Positions 10,206 through 20,068 of a stretch of 64,000 nt of DNA are shown here, piece by piece. Below the pieces are notes generated by a model. It searched no databases and was not told where the DNA came from. It worked only from the letters and a program-made list of their open reading frames with translations. Source of the DNA: Streptomyces longhuiensis (GTDB lineage Bacteria > Actinomycetota > Actinomycetes > Streptomycetales > Streptomycetaceae); assembly GCF_020616555.1 (NCBI RefSeq), contig NZ_CP085174.1, forward strand, positions 62,001-126,000, given 5' to 3'. The translations under genes and the position numbers were made by a program. Numbering within the stretch: the first letter of the stretch is position 1; each line of letters opens with the position of its first letter.

Positions 10206-10290
10206 GGAAACACACAAAACCAGGCCAGGGCGTACGGAAGCACCGGACGCAAGCGATCAGCTTGGCCGAGATGCACCCGGAGCGGTGGCA

Positions 10291-10712
10291 ATGGACGCTG
10301 GAGGCATGAGGGCCCTGTGGTCCGGCGTGATCCAGTTCGGGCTGGTCGTGCTCCCCGTGAAGCTGTTCTCGGCGACAGAGGAGCACAAAGTCCGGCTGCG
10401 GGAGATCCATGCCGCGGACAGCGGCCGGGTGCAGCACCGGCGGTTCTGTGAGGCCGAGGACCGTGAAATCGGGTACGAGGAGGTCGGGCGCGGCTGGGAG
10501 CTGCCGGACGGGCAGTTGGTGCCGCTCACGGATGAGGACCTGGCGTGTCTGCCGCTGGCGACCCGGCACGTCGTTCAGGTGCTCGGCTTCGTGCCTTGGC
10601 AGGACATCGACCCGATCTCGTTCAGCAGGCCGTACTACGTCGGTCCCGACGGGCCGCCGACGGAGCGGGCGTACGCGCTGCTCGTCGAGGCGCTCGCCCG
10701 CACCGGGCAGGC
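10291..10712 (+). pseudogene. Ku-like DNA end-binding protein, 3'-truncated
   Basis: The frame starts like bacterial Ku: MRALWSGVIQFGLVVLPVKLFSATEEHKVRLREIH, then CEAEDREIGYEEVGRGWEL, LPLATRHVVQVLGFVPWQDIDPISFSRPYYVGPD...AYALLVEAL. After about 140 codons the homology ends abruptly at ARTGQAA and the frame continues in the antisense of a fragment of the 4775-5173 gene family. Central core and C-terminus are missing, so it should not form the dimeric ring. Ku normally works with LigD in end joining; no LigD is in the window. Start 10291 or 10306. Confidence 0.85.
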
Positions 10713-10944
10713 TGCCGGCGGAGGAGTCGGGACGGATCTTCCCGGAGTGGATCAGGCGGATGACGGCCTCGCGCACCGCGTTGTACACGGCGGGGTCGAT
10801 GGTGTGCTGGGGGGCGGTGAGCGCGTCGGCCTTGACCGCCCACAGCGGGCCCTGTTGCTCGACCCCGATGAACACAGCCCCCTGTTCTTTGGCCACCTTG
10901 CATCCTGCGGCCAGGGCGTCCATGCCGGTCGGCTACTCCCCCGT
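10711..10944 (-). pseudogene. Fragment of the 4775-5173 gene family
   Basis: The frame reads MDALAAGCKVAKEQGAVFIGVEQQ...KADALTAPQHTIDPAVYNAVREAVIRLIHSGKIRPDSSAG. This is the middle of the protein at 4775-5173. It ends exactly where the truncated Ku begins (shared gccggcggaggagtcggg). Its own N-terminus is cut by a stop codon just upstream. Confidence 0.8.
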
Positions 10945-10954
10945 CCAGGCGTCC

Positions 10955-11035
10955 CGTGCGCCCTTGCGCGCACCGGACCCACCAGGAAACCAGCTGTCAC
11001 TGACAACGCATCAGGAATGGTGGGGAGTTGTGGTT
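10955..11035. repeat. Promoter-like repeat element, copy 2
   Basis: Close match to 6700-6785 through cactgacaacgcatcag.aat.gtggggagttgtggtt. Here only a gene fragment lies on its minus-strand downstream side, as if the promoter had been carried along with deleted DNA. Confidence 0.45.
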
Positions 11036-11088
11036 CCCAGGGAGCAGATCCGGTCACGGTCTGCCCCTCTGTGCCCACCGTGTTCTGA

Positions 11089-12015: not shown

Positions 12016-12804
12016 TCACAGGACGGTGCCGTTAAGGGCGCGGCGGTCGCCGGAGATCGCGTAGCGGCGGGCGGCGAGGGCGTGGTCGAGGCCTTCGCCG
12101 ATCTCCTCACACAGCGGCGCCAGGACGTGGGCCGCCGCCGCGTCGGACAGGTGAGCCGGGGCGACCTCGAGCATCAGCTCGCCGACCTGGTGGGTGCCGG
12201 CGGCGAGGTCGTCGACCACGGCGCGCAGCGCGGCAAGCGCGGGATCCGCCGACGGACAGACCGGCGGCGGGGACGGTGTGGCGCGGATGTCGTGGACGGC
12301 TTGGCGGACCACCTCGCGCACGGCCGGCTCGTCGAGGGGGTTTTCGCCGTTGTGAGTGAGCGTGGCGAGGCGGCGGGTGATCAGCTGGGCGACGTCGCCG
12401 CGGCGGGCGCAGACGTCGACCAGGGCGCGCTGGGACAGGCCGTAGTCGAGCGCGGCTTCGGCGACGGGGTCGGTGTCTCGTGTGCGAGACGGATCGGTGC
12501 TCGCCGTGACGGCGCCGTGGATGGCGGCCTGGGCGTGGGCGACGTCGAGGAGCCGGTAGGCCTGCGCGCGGGAGATGCCGAACTCCGCCCCGCAGTAGGA
12601 GGCCCAGCCGCTGTGGCCGAGGGGGAGCCAGATGCGGGCGGCGTGCGCGTCACGGACCCGGGCGGCCAGCGTCGCCACCGAGCGCACCACACCGTCCATC
12701 GCCGCGCGCAGCCCGGCTGTGATCTGCCGGGCGCGGTCCACGCCCGGCAGATCACAGCCGGGCTGCGCCGGTCCGGCAACGTGCCCCTGGTGGCGGTCGT
12801 CCAT
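12016..12804 (-). CDS. Putative DNA-binding protein (262 aa), HTH-like N-terminal half
   Basis: ATG at 12804. Residues about 20-90 (ARQITAGLRAAMDGVVRSVATLAARV..WLPLGHSGWASYCGAEFGISRAQAYRLLDVA) contain a clear HTH (EFGISRAQAYRLL) of the kind in Streptomyces mobile-element proteins. The C-terminal domain (PALAALRAVVDDLAAG...ALAARRYAISGDRRALNGT) recurs as the separate protein 17990-18396 and as scraps at 32815-32885 and 33455-33525. The first codons contain a perfect 25-bp inverted repeat (12709-12765). The start could instead be the later Met after the repeat (MDGVVRSVATL). Function unknown; regulator or plasmid-maintenance role inferred only from the HTH. Confidence 0.7.
   Translation of the reverse strand: MDDRHQGHVAGPAQPGCDLPGVDRARQITAGLRAAMDGVVRSVATLAARVRDAHAARIWLPLGHSGWASYCGAEFGISRAQAYRLLDVAHAQAAIHGAVTASTDPSRTRDTDPVAEAALDYGLSQRALVDVCARRGDVAQLITRRLATLTHNGENPLDEPAVREVVRQAVHDIRATPSPPPVCPSADPALAALRAVVDDLAAGTHQVGELMLEVAPAHLSDAAAAHVLAPLCEEIGEGLDHALAARRYAISGDRRALNGTVL
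12709..12765. repeat. Perfect 25-bp inverted repeat with 7-nt spacer
   Basis: Arms 12709-12733 (cagcccggctgtgatctgcc...) and 12741-12765 are exact reverse complements around cggtcca. It lies inside the N-terminal coding region of the 12016-12804 gene and is in frame, encoding QPGCDLPG and ARQITAGL on either side. Confidence 0.9.
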
Positions 12805-12878
12805 GCCTCCATCGTCCTCCGCACGGGCAGACCGGACCAGGGCGTACGGAAGCATTCGGGCCACGGTGCGGCCCGGGT

Positions 12879-13187
12879 TCAGAGGTCGAGGACGGCTTGT
12901 AGGGCCTGGTCGACGCGGGCCATCGTGGCCGGGTCGAGGGCGCCGCGGTAGGTCGCCTCCGCGAAGCGGACGGTGCGCAGTTGCTGGAGGTTCACCGCGA
13001 CCGCTGTGCTGGGGATCGGGTCGCGGATGACGACCGACATCGCGGTGTCGGGGTAACGGCCGGCGGGGTGCAGCACGAGGGCGAGGACGGCCCCGCACGC
13101 CTCGTCGAGACCGGTCGGGGAGACGACCAGGACGTGACGGTCGTCGGGCGGGGTCCAGACGTCGCCGCGCTTGATCTCCTGGCTCAA
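12879..13187 (-). CDS. MazF/PemK-like toxin of a type II TA pair
   Basis: 102 aa starting at TTG 13187, which overlaps the stop of the upstream antitoxin gene (sequence ttga). The N-terminus SQEIKRGDVWTPPDDRHVLVVSP fits the first strand and loop of the CcdB/PemK/MazF barrel (RGDVW motif). Later blocks are AVLALVLHP, DTAMSVVIRDP and AVAVNLQQLRTVRFAEA. MazF-type toxins are endoribonucleases; CcdB-type poison gyrase. I favour PemK/MazF by the RGDVW start. Translational coupling with a small ribbon-helix-helix protein strongly supports a TA operon. Confidence 0.75.
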   Translation of the reverse strand: MSQEIKRGDVWTPPDDRHVLVVSPTGLDEACGAVLALVLHPAGRYPDTAMSVVIRDPIPSTAVAVNLQQLRTVRFAEATYRGALDPATMARVDQALQAVLDL

Positions 13188-13381
13188 AGGGTGTCGCCCT
13201 CGCCCGCCAGGTCCTGGCCCAGGCCGAGGGCTGCGAGCTGGTGGCCGGCATCGAGGAGGGCGGCGCGCCGGGCGGCACGCACGATGTAGGCATTCACGCT
13301 CAGGCCGTCCGCCTGCGCTGCCTGCCTGATCACGGGAGCCAGCTCGTCGGGGACGCGCAGCGTCATCGTGGTGATCGACAT
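13184..13381 (-). CDS. Ribbon-helix-helix antitoxin
   Basis: 65 aa from ATG 13381: MSITTMTLRVPDELAPVIRQAAQADGLSVNAYIVRAARRAALLDAG. TMTLRVPDEL is the DNA-contacting strand of MetJ/Arc/CopG-type antitoxins, followed by two helices. The upstream palindrome gccacc-N7-ggtggc at 13394-13412 is a good autoregulatory operator. Confidence 0.85.
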   Translation of the reverse strand: MSITTMTLRVPDELAPVIRQAAQADGLSVNAYIVRAARRAALLDAGHQLAALGLGQDLAGEGDTL

Positions 13382-14555: not shown

Positions 14556-14909
14556 TCAGGTGCGGCGGTGGCTGGTGTAGTAGCTGCCGACCTGCTCGTG
14601 GTACCCGGCGTCACCGACGTGCTTGTCCCTGTCGAACTCGGGCGAGCCCTTGATCTGATCCTTGGTGAGGTCGACGAAGACCTTCCGCTCCGTCTGGTCC
14701 ACGGTGCGCACCGTGCCGGCGGGCAGCAGGACGTGCTTACCGAAGATCCAGACACCGGTGTCGACGACGAGGTACGCGGAGTCGACGTCGTCCGAGTGCT
14801 TGTCGACCTTGCCGATACTGCCGTCGGTGGCCTCGACCTTGTAACCGATCAGGTCGATCCCCGCAGTGTGGCCGGCGGTCGGCTGGTAGCCCCAGATGCT
14901 GTCACTCAT
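14556..14909 (-). CDS. PRC-barrel domain protein
   Basis: 117 aa, ATG 14909. GIDLIGYKVEATDGSIGKVDKHSDDVDSAYLVVDTGVWIFGKHVLLPAGTVRTVDQTERKVFVDLTKDQI is a typical PRC-barrel (beta-barrel found in RimM and photosystem proteins), here alone. These small proteins in Streptomyces are commonly part of the SigB/osmotic stress regulon; the neighbours (small hydrophobic protein, SigB-like factor) agree. The minus-strand sequence GGGTAC at 14970-14975 is a possible SigB-type -10. Confidence 0.9.
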   Translation of the reverse strand: MSDSIWGYQPTAGHTAGIDLIGYKVEATDGSIGKVDKHSDDVDSAYLVVDTGVWIFGKHVLLPAGTVRTVDQTERKVFVDLTKDQIKGSPEFDRDKHVGDAGYHEQVGSYYTSHRRT

Positions 14910-15415: not shown

Positions 15416-15716
15416 GAATATCAACCTCCGAGCAATCATGTGCCCAGCAAAAATCCCACCACGCCTCAAAATCGCGTTCGTTTACTCCGCTCCAACGCGG
15501 GGAGTGGTATTCACCAAATAGTGAGGTCATACATAAGGGGCTTGGGTGCGGAAAACGCCCGCGCTTACAGATACCGGCGCCCCACGCAGCAGGGACGCTC
15601 CTACCAGGCTTCCTTCGCCGTGTTTCGTTTTCCTGCCGGGCAAAAGGCGCATGCGCACGCCGTGCCGGGGCAGGAGCCGATTCGAGACGAGTGCACCACT
15701 AGGGGAGGGACGGGAC

Positions 15717-16603
15717 ATGGCAGCGACTTCTGCGCCGATCACCCAGACCGTGCGGATCGGGGGAGAAGCCGCGCCAGGAACGGGAGCTGCCGCCTGCGGT
15801 GAGCTGCCCTGGATCGAGGACGCGGGCACCGTGGCGCCCAAGGACGCCCGGGCTCTGTCGAAGCTGTTCTTCGACCGGCTCGACGTCCTGGAGGAGGGCA
15901 CGCAGGCGCACCATTACGCGCGCAACACCCTCCTCGAGATGAACCTCTCCCTGGTCCAGTTCGTCGCGCGCCGGTTCCGTAACCGTGGCAGCGGCGAGAT
16001 GGAGGACATCGTCCAGGTCGGCACGGTCGGCCTGATCAAGGCGATCGACCGGTTCGACCTGTCCCGCGAGGTCGAGTTCACCAGCTTCGCCGTTCCCTGC
16101 ATCGTCGGGGAGATCAAACGCTTCTTCCGCGACACCACGTGGGCCGTCCACGTCCCCGCCGCCTGCAGGAACTGCGGGTGGACCTCGCGCAGGCCACAGA
16201 GCAGCTCGCCGCCGACCAGGACCGTGAACCGACCGTCAAGGAGCTCGCCGCACACCTGCAGCTGAGCCAGGACGAGGTCATCGAGGGAATCGTCGCCTCC
16301 AACGGCTATACCGCCGGCTCCCTGGACATGCCGGCCGACGGCGGGGACAACCCCGGCGCCACCCGCTCCTACGCCGACGTGATCGGCGACGTCGACCCCG
16401 CCATGGAAGCCACCGACAACCTCCACATTCTGGCCCCCCTGCTGGACAAGCTCGAGACCCGTGATCGGCGCATCATCGAGATGCGCTTCGGCCAGGAGAT
16501 GACCCAGACCCAGATCGGCGCGGAACTGGGCATCTCCCAGATGCACGTCTCACGACTCCTCACCCGCGTCCTCACCCACCTCCGCACCGGCATGCTCGCC
16601 TGA
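15717..16603 (+). pseudogene. SigB/SigF-family RNA polymerase sigma factor with a frameshift
   Basis: ATG 15717 (RBS ggggaggga). The first part carries sigma region 2: LLEMNLSLVQFVARRFRNRG.GEMEDIVQVGTVGLIKAIDRFDLSREVEFTSFAVPCIVGEIKRFFRDTTW. At about 16158-16165 the frame shifts: inserting one C in gtccccgccgcc restores VPRRLQELRVDLAQATEQLAA and the rest continues cleanly through regions 3 and 4 (TQTQIGAELGISQMHVSRLL) to 16603. Both halves are well conserved, so this is either a very recent mutation or a base-calling error in a C run. It would direct the stress genes around it (PRC-barrel, hydrophobic protein, DUF5133, chaplin, PfpI). Confidence 0.85.
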
Positions 16604-16677
16604 AACTCCCCCGGGCGAACCGTGACGTGGCCTTGCCCGGACACAGCACAGGCCCCATCACCCCCGTAGGAGAATCC

Positions 16678-16932
16678 GTGCTGATGCCCCACCCCGCGAT
16701 ACTGCAAAAGCTTCTCGAGCAGTACAAGACACTCCTCGCCCTAGAGACCGAGAACGGCACCGTCCCCCTCCGACGCGAACTCGACGACGTCACCTACACC
16801 CTCTGCGTCTCCACCGGCACCCTCACCATCAAAGCGGCCCTCACCGCGGCACAACAGCAACTGGACGCCCACCTCACCGACCCCGCGCCCACACAGCGCG
16901 CGGCGCCAGGCGGCATACAGCTCACGGCCTGA
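16678..16932 (+). CDS. DUF5133-family protein
   Basis: GTG start at 16678 with taggag 8 nt upstream; protein begins (V)LMPHPAILQKLLEQYKTLLALE and has the signature RRELDDVTYTLCVSTGT. Streptomyces-specific small protein of unknown function, commonly next to SigB-like genes. It lies 75 bp after the sigma factor and may be co-transcribed. Confidence 0.85.
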   Translation: MLMPHPAILQKLLEQYKTLLALETENGTVPLRRELDDVTYTLCVSTGTLTIKAALTAAQQQLDAHLTDPAPTQRAAPGGIQLTA

Positions 16933-17332
16933 CCGCCTTCTACGCCCAGTCGACGACGCGCTTCACCACGAGTCGGAGCTGTCGTCACAACTGTCCGCTG
17001 GCTTCTCCCGTGATGGGGTCGAGGACGCGGGAGCCCAGCGGGTCTACACGTCACCGGCGCACTACTGCATCGACCACACGCACTCGCCTCACCACCTCCA
17101 GCATGACCCTGTGCGGGATCGAAACGGGCGAGCAGGCATCAGGCGAGGCGGTACCTGGTCCACACCACGTTCACGCAGACGGGCTGCCGCCCGATCATGG
17201 TCGCTGCGTTCGGAAACCCCTGCACCCGCCGGATTCCGGCGGGCACCGCCGATCGGTGCTCGTCCACAACTTCCCGGTCAAGGGTTCGTTGGGCTCAGCG
17301 AAACGCCCAGCCCATGACCGGAAGGTGTCGTC
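16933..17332. other. Intergenic region before the ADF/cofilin-like gene
   Basis: No protein-like frame was found in these 400 bp. The last 40 bp hold the RBS ggaagg for the gene at 17333. Promoters are not obvious by eye. Confidence 0.5.
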
Positions 17333-17737
17333 GTGACCAGTGCCATCTCAGTGGAAGACCGCTGTATCGACGCATTCAACAATCTCAAGAGGAGCCGGCA
17401 CGTCACCACCGTGCTGTACCGGCTCAACGACAACCTGGACACCCTCACCCTGGACTTCGAAGGCAATCTCACCCACGACGAACTCCTCAAAACCCTGCCG
17501 TCCGATCCCCGCTTCGTGGCCTACGAACTGTGCTTCGCCGACCGGGACGGCAGCCGCAAAGAGGCGATCCTGCTGATCTCCTGGACCCCCCGGGGCACCA
17601 GTGCCGAGCAAGGGACAGCACAGGCCACCTGCTACGCCACCCTCAGAAACCAGCTCGACGGCGTCAACCTCTTCATCGAGGCTGCGACCGAGTCGGATCT
17701 GGAGTACAACCACCTCGTCCACGTCGCCCGGGCTTAA
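17333..17737 (+). CDS. ADF/cofilin-like (actin-depolymerizing factor homology) protein
   Basis: 134 aa, GTG start at 17333 (ggaagg 7 nt before). It aligns end to end with eukaryotic ADF/cofilin: an N-terminal segment ISVEDRCIDAFNNLK (cofilin V.D.C...F..LK), strand VTTVLYRLND, HDELLKTLPSDPRFVAYEL (plant ADF HEDLAASLPADECRYAIFD), GSRKEAILLISWTPRGTS (cofilin ..I.FI.WSPDTAP), the long actin-binding helix QATCYATLRNQLDGVNLFI (cofilin KM.YAS.KDALRR.LDGV) and a final E/D...Y/V..V.RA. Length equals a single ADF-H domain. In eukaryotes these proteins sever and depolymerise actin filaments. The basic residues of the actin-binding helix are mostly replaced (one Arg kept), so the partner may be a bacterial actin (MreB, Mbl, ParM-like) or something else. 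No actin-like gene is in the window. The neighbours are stress genes. Confidence 0.85.
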   Translation: MTSAISVEDRCIDAFNNLKRSRHVTTVLYRLNDNLDTLTLDFEGNLTHDELLKTLPSDPRFVAYELCFADRDGSRKEAILLISWTPRGTSAEQGTAQATCYATLRNQLDGVNLFIEAATESDLEYNHLVHVARA

Positions 17738-17989
17738 CTCACTGCCGGTGATGCCTCGTCGCGCAACAGGACAAATCAGCAAGTGAGGCCCAAAGGCCGA
17801 ACTGACCGACGTTCACCTTGCCGGCAGGCGGCTGCCGACCGGCGGGGCATGGATGCACTGCAGACAGACAGCACGACATGACACGCCCGCACAAATAGGG
17901 ATCTATCTCGAGGCCGTCCAGGCATCCTGGCCCCTGATACAGCAGAGCAGTCCTGCAGCCCATGCCTCACGCCGGAGGAGGACTCACCG

Positions 17990-18396
17990 TGGAGCCGGAG
18001 CACGAGGCGGCACCGGAGCCGGTCGGCCGGATTCACGCGGCGCGGCTGGCCGAGGACCTGCGTGTAGCCACCGGTGAGGCGCGGCAGGCCGCGATGGTCC
18101 TGGTCGCACTGGTGCGAGACGCCCACCGGGCTCTCACTGACGCGGAGCGGCACCAGGCCGACACGAAGGCAGTCCGTTACCTGATCGAGGAAATGGTCGC
18201 GGCAGGCGGGCGGCTGGGCCAGATCGCCCTCGAACTCGCCCCCGCCCACCTGTCCGACCGGGAAGCCGCCGGCACCGTTCTCGCCCAGTACGCCCACGAC
18301 ATCGGCTGCGACATGGAAACCGTCCTCGCCACGCGCCGCTACGCACTCACCGGCAACCGCAGCGCACTGGAAGGCACCTGGATCCGCACTCTCTGA
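17990..18396 (+). CDS. Hypothetical protein related to the C-terminal domain of the 12016-12804 protein
   Basis: GTG at 17990 has ggaggagg 7 nt upstream and is preferred over the ATG at 17962. The 135-aa protein has RLAEDLRVATGEARQAAMVLVALVRDAHRALTDAERHQADTKAVRYLIEEMVAAGGRLGQIALELAPAHLSDREAAGTVLAQYAHDIG split by helices, and ends LATRRYALTGNRSALEGTW. The end matches LAARRYAISGDRRALNGT and the middle matches ELMLEVAPAHLSDAAAAHVLA of the other protein. It lacks the HTH half. Function unknown. Confidence 0.75.
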
Positions 18397-18488: not shown

Positions 18489-20068
18489 TCAGCTGGTGTG
18501 GGCCTTGCTGTGCGCCATGCCCATCGCGTGCGCCTGGCCGGAGTCGCCGCCGCGGGCACCGTGGCCGCCATCGGTCCAGGACGTGTTCCACGCGTCACCC
18601 GTGCTGCCGGTGTGGCCGGTCATGCCCGATTCACCGGACGTGGCCCAGGCGCCCTGCTTGCTGTCCTGGTGCTTCCAGCCTCCGTGGTGGCCACCTTGGT
18701 TGTGACCGCCGAGGATCGAGATGGTGCCGGCCTGGTTGCCGCCGGTGGCCCCGGAGTCACCCGAGTTGCCGCTGTTCCCGGACTGGGCCCTGTTGTTGCT
18801 GGTGGCGCTGCCACCGTCGCCGCCACGGCCGGTGCCGCCCGAGCGGGCGCCGGTGCGGTTGTCGGCCTGCGAAGAGGTGTTGTTGCTGCTGGAACGCTCG
18901 TGGTGACGGGTCCAGCCCCAGCGGTGCGAAGACTTCTGCTGCTTGGCATAGGCCCTGCTGTGCGCCATACCGGTCGCGTGCGCCGCACCGGAGTCGCCAC
19001 CACGGGCACCTTGCCGCCGGACGTCCAGGACTTGTTCCACGCGTCACCCGTGCAGCCGGTCTTGCCGGTGTTCCCGGAGTCGCCCGAGGTCGCGGAGGCC
19101 TTCGAGCCGCCGCTCATCCAGCTGTGGCCCCAGTCCGAGGCGCCCCAGCCATGACCACCGCCGCGGTGGCCGCTGTTGCTGCCGAGGATGGCGATGGTGC
19201 CGGCCTGGTTGCCGCCGGTGGAACCCGAGTCGCCCGAGTTGCCGCTGTTCCCGGACTGGGCCTGGTTGTTGCTGATGGCGTTGCCGCCGTCGCCGCCACG
19301 GCCGGTGTCACCCGAGCGGGCGCCGGTGCGGTTGTCGGCCTGCGAAGAGGCGTCGCTGCTGCTGGAACCGCCGTGGCCCCAGCTGCCAAAGGCGGGCAGG
19401 ATCCGGTACTGGCCCTCCCGGCCCCAGCTGCGCTGCTCCGACCACGCTGCGGCGTTCGCCATGCCCATGGCGTGGGCCGGGCCGGAGTCCCCGCCACGGC
19501 CACCGCGACCGCCCGACGTCCATGACTCGTTCGACGCGTCACCCGAGTTACCCGTCGCGCCGGTGTCACCCGAGTCGCCCGACGTGGCCGAGGCCCCGCA
19601 CCGGGCCAGGATGCAGATGTTCCCGACCTGGTTCCCACCGGTCGAACCGGAGTTCCCGGAATTGCCGCTGTTCCCCGACTGGGCCTGGTTGTTGCTGGAG
19701 GCGTTGCCGCCGTCCCCGCCACGGCCGGTGTCACCGGAAGCGACGCCGGACTTGTTCGACGCCGAGGCGCCGCTGAGTGCTGCCCTTGCCGCTGTGCCGG
19801 CCGGAGATGTCTTGCTTCGCGCTCGAGGCGGCGTGGCTGGAGCCGTGCGCCTTCGCCGGGCCGGAGTCCCCGCCACGGCCGGCGTCACCACCACTCGTGT
19901 GGGACGCGTTCGACGCGGTACCGGAGTCACCCGTCTTCCCGGTGTCTCCAGAGTTGCCGGAGGAGGCGTGCGCGGTGCAGTCCGCCAGGACACAGATGTT
20001 CCCGGCCCTGTTCCCACCGGTGGAACCGGAGTTCCCGGTGTTCCCCGACTGCGCCTTGTTGCTGGGGG
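18489..20068 (-). pseudogene. Gly/Asn/Ser-rich tandem-repeat protein, frameshifted and 5'-truncated
   Basis: Read leftward, three long repeats (each about 180 aa) share a Ser-Asn-Asn/Ala-Gln block, SGNSGNSGDSGSTGGNQAG, a short hydrophobic core (TISIL, TIAIL, NICIL), then SGDSG.TG.TG..GDA.N.SWTSGG, RGGDSGPAHAMGMA and ADNRTGARSGDTGRGGDGG. The reading frame must change at about 19010 (one G missing in ggcaaggtgcc) and about 19790 to keep the repeats. At about 20068 the frame meets a stop without a start, so the N-terminus and any signal peptide are gone. The composition recalls Gly/Asn-rich cell-surface or PGRS-type proteins. No function can be assigned. Confidence 0.65.

Follow-up and report, generated by a model that had tools for sequence, protein, structure and literature searches.

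The window analyzed here is a stretch of 64,000 nucleotides of Streptomyces DNA, and it contains a gene for a small protein related to the actin-depolymerizing factors (ADF/cofilin or ADF-H family). The features of the locus are listed in Table 1. The GC contents of the three codon positions of the gene (0.61, 0.41, and 0.84) are normal for a coding gene of high GC content, and 7 bases separate the Shine-Dalgarno-like GGAAGG from the GTG start codon. The upstream region was compared by aligning 350 bases with MAFFT from the window and five relatives (L023, L024, L025, L026, and L048), all of which belong to the subclade B1 described below. Approximately 70 bp before the start are common to the six loci; the DNA farther upstream is dissimilar, and the flanking genes differ. 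The conserved stretch presumably contains the promoter and leader, and no stress-type sigma promoter was recognized in it by eye.

Table 1. Features of the cofilin locus and its upstream neighbors in the window.
Feature	Position	Strand	Basis
ADF-H (cofilin-like) protein, 134 aa	17333..17737	+	GTG start 17333, stop 17735-17737
Shine-Dalgarno-like GGAAGG	17320..17325	+	sequence; identical in 6 aligned B1 loci
Short upstream stretch, presumed promoter and leader	17262..17332	+	conserved across 6 aligned B1 loci
Codons for residues 44-55 (GNLTHDELLKTL), clade signature block, start of helix 2	17462..17497	+	alignments and model
Codons for residues 91-107, a long helix corresponding to the actin-binding helix	17603..17653	+	yeast cofilin alignment; model
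DUF5133 protein, upstream neighbor	16627..16932	+	PF17196 E 5.6e-23
Sigma-70-type factor, front (region 2), in a different frame from the rest	15546..16265	+	PF04542 E 2.2e-16
Sigma factor, rear (regions 3 and 4), upstream neighbor	16139..16603	+	PF04545 E 3.1e-18, PF04539 E 1.2e-12
PRC-barrel protein	14556..14909	-	PF05239 E 2.2e-4, just over cut-off
Ku DNA-repair protein	10285..11088	+	PF02735 E 2.9e-28

An earlier note on this DNA had placed the gene in a stress region, and the nearby Ku, PRC-barrel, sigma factor, and DUF5133 genes agree with this description. A helix-turn-helix/TPR regulator and a polyketide-cyclase-like protein are also encoded near the gene. The sigma-70-type factor (15546-16603, plus strand) is distributed over two frames, so that the gene is broken or the sequence contains an error.

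The window protein matches Pfam PF00241 (ADF-H) with an E-value of 7.6e-20 over residues 11-128. The score of 71.3 bits, compared with a curated cut-off of 22.4, and the coverage of profile positions 1-122 of 125 make it a member of this family; no NCBIfam profile matched it. Foldseek assigned it the ADF-H fold (E 6e-13, TM-score 0.90), and its structure model includes helices at residues 48-54 and 91-107. A phmmer search of the PDB ranked actophorin, an amoebal protein, first (E 2.6e-11), followed by a Streptomyces cofilin (5ivu) and fission-yeast cofilin, with plant ADF (1f7s) lower. Profile, sequence, and fold comparisons all agree; the match is far beyond chance, and the window protein is truly related to cofilin. 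It is a single-domain ADF-H protein, as the earlier note had proposed, and the motifs named there are visible in the sequence. One detail differs from that note, which compared a sequence block with plant ADFs: actophorin is the best match among the solved structures. Yeast cofilin and actophorin share the fold and the full-length alignment with the window protein but differ from it in the actin-binding residues of the long helix and the C-terminus. The sequence similarity of GMF and coactosin to the window protein is weaker than that of the cofilins.

In phylogenetic trees with homologs, the window protein belongs to a separate clade, termed B, which occupies one side of a branch with a support of 100/100 (23 rows in the careful tree and 24 in the other). 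A long stem leads to this clade, which lies apart from the fungal rows. Within clade B, L033, L049, and P0018 branch first, followed by further lines, B1 (including the window), and B2. L033 comes from another genus of the Streptomycetaceae, and the organisms named among 120 of the 253 matches to a clade-B profile are all Streptomyces; clade B is found only in Streptomycetaceae so far. Another group, A1, comprises 12 rows from Embleya, Kitasatospora, and Streptomyces, and forms one clade (98/81) beside the fungal cofilins, separate from clade B. The A1 proteins, which bear names such as 'actin-binding ADF family protein', are also single-domain ADF-H proteins of the same bacterial family. However, they are far closer to the fungal cofilins, with an Embleya protein scoring 155.6 bits against yeast cofilin compared with 36.5 for the window protein, which does not group with A1 in the tree. 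Constraining A1 and B to a single clade was weakly rejected (p-AU 0.037, for a group named after the tree had been seen); therefore, clade B may represent a separate capture. Eight further ADF-H proteins (L028-L032, L034, L039, and L044) belong clearly to neither A1 nor B. The careful tree omits L040 and the four long-branched rows L029-L032, and the trees omit L039 and L044 (divergent or partial), L034 (two frames), L042, and L045. L034 (G345:C28:6201-6561) is a canonical-type cofilin gene lying in two frames and is probably broken there.

In yeast cofilin, a published account implicates Arg96 and Lys98 in the binding of G-actin and describes Arg80, Lys82, Arg135, and Arg138 as essential for that of F-actin (PMC3541276). 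The residues of the window protein aligned with Arg80, Lys82, Arg96, Lys98, Arg135, and Arg138 are Lys76, Ala78, Glu92, Gly94, Val131, and Ala134, respectively. Consequently, neither G-actin position is basic, and Lys76 is the only basic residue at the F-actin positions; moreover, Tyr101 replaces Lys105 of yeast cofilin. The loss of most basic residues from the actin-binding helix, noticed in the earlier note, is seen in Glu92 and Gly94. The N-terminal serine (Ser4 in yeast cofilin) is retained, and B1 has Ser in 9 of 10 proteins and Thr in the tenth. All ten B1 proteins have Glu at the position of Arg96, and none has a basic residue at those of Lys98, Arg135, or Arg138. By contrast, the Streptomyces griseoflavus cofilin of 5ivu, which the tree places with fungal and metagenomic cofilins, is basic at the equivalents of Arg80, Lys82, Arg96, Lys98, Arg135, and Arg138. 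The six sites are also basic in all 12 proteins of A1 and in the 36 fungal rows, except that at either C-terminal site one row has a gap.

The same positions were surveyed in 123 distinct clade-B-type sequences, namely the 24 tree rows and 107 further matches from protein searches, which have no placement in the tree, after removal of duplicates. These 107 consist of 104 new sequences among the matches listed (120 of 253) of the clade-B profile search, which scored the 7,997 candidates with the most shared words, and three others. Both Arg96 and Lys98 positions are basic in three sequences (L033, L036, and L049), one of them in 23, and neither in 97. A basic residue occurs at the position of Arg138 in none, at that of Arg135 in 19, at that of Lys82 in 27, and at that of Arg80 in 101, and the Ser4 position is Ser in 80 of the 123. 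The assignment at Arg96 in B2 depends on the alignment, with a gap in seven of eight rows in one and Gln as the commonest residue over all 123 sequences in the other, and is mostly non-basic either way. Both basic helix residues are retained in the first-branching L033 (incomplete) and L049; therefore, they were lost within clade B, and the loss of actin-binding residues is, as judged from the alignments, graded inside the clade. A directed loss of actin contacts was rejected as not significant, as 9 of 11 actin-contact columns were lost compared with 29 of 45 other columns conserved in fungi (p 0.47). With no significant excess at the contact columns, the residue loss may simply belong to the general divergence of the clade instead of marking a directed switch. 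The retention of Ser4 in 80 and of a basic residue at Arg80 in 101 of the 123 sequences suggests that some actin-type contact may be possible.

The start of helix 2 reads THDE or THEE in 116 of the 123 sequences. Thr47, His48, Glu50, Arg60, Gly73, Trp84, Pro86, and Tyr125 are among the residues that are invariant in a 14-row alignment of clade B. The dN/dS values are between 0.28 and 0.51 in 14 of the 15 B1 pairs, which share sequences and are not independent. These substitution rates indicate selection on the gene at the protein level. A value of 0.74 between the two copies that the window's genome contains, and of 0.67 for the single B2 pair computed (L046-L050), could mean that selection is relaxed in some lines.

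The window's own genome (10.0 Mb, two contigs) contains two copies of the gene. That of the window is on the 202-kb contig C2; the other, approximately 80% identical to it, is on C1, approximately 110 kb from the contig end. PF00241 matches were found in 19 of 394 Streptomycetaceae genomes, including this one; among 396 genomes drawn from across the phylum, the sole genome with a match is again the window's own. The statement in the earlier note that such proteins are rare in bacteria fits the sampled genomes, but within Streptomycetaceae approximately 5% of the species carry one. A mreB-mreC tree was built from 79 of 250 genomes of the genus, chosen to include carriers of ADF genes and of the MreB paralog described below; G346, whose stretch has no mreB match, was left out. 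The 14 carriers require at least 13 changes on this tree, indicating that the gene comes and goes. Relatives were present in 5 of 72,556 plasmid records. No close relative was found in viral contigs or phage records, and a phage or viral origin was rejected on this ground.

On plasmids with annotation from S. avidinii, S. goshikiensis, and strain NBC_01296, the cofilin gene has among its neighbors hemerythrin, CBS, PRC-barrel, STAS, PP2C, Ku, and ligase genes, although not all on each. Twelve markers of such a stress neighborhood were taken from the clade-B plasmid loci L046 and L050, and 16 other clade-B loci were compared with 20 control stretches of carrier genomes. At least one marker was present in 9 of the 16 loci, with seven having none, and in 2 of the 20 controls (Fisher p 0.004); this p-value is optimistic because of the choice of markers and the kinship among some of the 16 loci, and is regarded as a lead. 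A PRC-barrel gene was near 5 of the 16 loci compared with 1 of the 20 controls. A simple gene caller revealed no neighbor common to all six B1 loci.

Cofilin, which cuts actin filaments, is known from textbooks as a protein of eukaryotes, and bacteria would not be expected to contain actin of this type. The window's branch has changed most of the residues that grip actin; therefore, the protein probably has a different role in the bacterium. We consider it fairly likely that it is a domesticated cofilin-fold protein of eukaryotic descent, most likely serving as a small protein-protein interaction domain that acts on a bacterial partner. A cofilin-fold gene of eukaryotic descent would have been domesticated in Streptomycetaceae with its fold intact, and most of the basic residues that hold G- and F-actin would have been lost stepwise within clade B. 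Because of this loss, the window protein should bind and sever eukaryotic actin poorly, and useful actin binding is not expected. The gene may represent a cytoplasmic single-gene module, carried by plasmids and chromosomes and often located near general-stress genes, and this gene context suggests a role in stress survival. The conserved THDEL helix peculiar to the clade would perhaps form part of the surface in contact with the partner. Such a switch of partner may be likened to GMF, an ADF-H protein that has changed its partner in eukaryotes and binds Arp2/3; bacteria are not expected to have Arp2/3. A precedent in Streptomyces is the galactose-oxidase-like glxA of S. coelicolor, which is reported to have probably come from fungi and to be needed for aerial development (PMC3543389).

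The gene might instead be a decaying relic of eukaryotic derivation without a present function, as the patchy distribution, the canonical-type copy in two frames in G345, and the two higher dN/dS values would allow. However, 14 of the 15 B1 pairs have dN/dS values of 0.28-0.51, the open frames are full-length, the leader is conserved, and the large set of relatives has invariant positions; a relic is therefore improbable. Seven of nine B2 loci (L037, L038, L040, L043, L046, L047, and L050) have a small gene for an AMPK1_CBM-like (glycogen-binding-like) protein no more than 1.8 kb from the cofilin gene, in varying order and orientation. The cofilin-like protein could accordingly be an ADF-H bystander of a stress regulon that binds an enzyme or a sugar-linked partner, such as this AMPK1_CBM-like protein. 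We regard this as very unlikely, since the simple gene caller found no such gene near 17 ADF loci outside B2 (six of B1, including the window), the Pfam match to AMPK1_CBM is below the cut-off in three of the four proteins scanned and absent in the fourth, one of the 20 control stretches also has such a gene, and some of the B2 loci share ancestry.

The remaining alternatives concern actin and its relatives. A1 and 5ivu keep the actin-binding residues, and it is therefore plausible that those proteins are released or delivered and then act on the actin of eukaryotes, whether predators, fungi, or hosts. For the window protein this is highly improbable: its branch has neither the two key helix residues nor the C-terminal basic residues, which disfavors the host actin named as a possible partner in the earlier note, no secretion signal is evident by eye at the N-terminus, and the phage and viral collections hold no close relative. 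MreB relatives occur in all of the 33 genomes searched, which include 19 carriers. In these genomes, no match to the Actin profile is better than E 2.2e-11; a eukaryotic-type actin should score far better, so that none was seen. Profilin was found in none of nine genomes carrying other ADF types, but the control genomes likewise had no match, which makes this result uninformative. The cofilin may have been retargeted to regulate MreB, Mbl, or an extra MreB paralog, which we consider unlikely. In the window's own genome, the paralog (C1:3661418-3662413; 63% identical to MreB; L073, L075, and L079) adjoins mreB and is oriented divergently from it. Defined by a match above 450 bits, the paralog was counted in 29 of the genus's 250 genomes; it is present in 9 of 14 genomes with ADF compared with 20 of 236 without (Fisher 1.5e-6, for related genomes), and several distinct ADF lineages are found in paralog-bearing genomes. 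However, this link received no support once the tree was used. Among 11 independent pairs on the mreB-mreC tree that differ in ADF, the paralog differed in the same way in a mean of 1.0 and in the other way in 0.4 (median p 1, with little power); with hardly any joint change, shared ancestry can explain the raw correlation, which is therefore regarded as no more than a lead. The five other carriers in the genus do not have the paralog, and visual inspection of the loci that were read recognized no MreB-type gene next to the cofilin genes. It is quite unlikely that a eukaryotic actin regulator was captured, spread by plasmids, and retargeted through a new binding face to a bacterial actin-like filament, possibly that of the extra MreB paralog, so as to form a working 'bacterial cofilin'.

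The existence of Streptomyces cofilins is already known at the database level. Records named 'cofilin family protein' and 'actin-binding ADF family protein', also on plasmids, agree with the entries mentioned in the earlier note, and PDB 5ivu, released on 2017-03-29, is titled 'Crystal Structure of Streptomyces griseoflavus Cofilin'. Among the papers listed, as judged by titles and abstract openings, none dealt with a cofilin from Streptomyces and no functional study was found, although a passing mention could be missed. Clade B, with 123 distinct sequences of its type examined and a graded loss of residues, offers a natural experiment in the probable repurposing of a eukaryotic cytoskeletal protein. 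Its early-branching members still have the actin-binding residues, and A1 or L049 paired with the window protein would provide clean test pairs. Should the partner be a bacterial filament, this would be, within the literature searched, the first known case in which a protein descended from a eukaryotic severing factor acts on such a filament.

Several minor observations concern the surrounding DNA. Approximately 6-9 kb downstream of the cofilin gene in L037, gas-vesicle-like proteins were noticed by eye. In the window, part of 12016-13293 (minus strand) matches genes that, in several of the records listed, are near the ends of plasmids of Streptomyces, at a distance of a few kb. The ORF directly after the cofilin gene (17962-18396, plus strand) resembles, by eye, the C-terminal end of the 12016-13293 gene. 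Beside the cofilin gene, the ORFs at 18489-20017 (minus strand) are rich in GNSGNSGDSG-type repeats.
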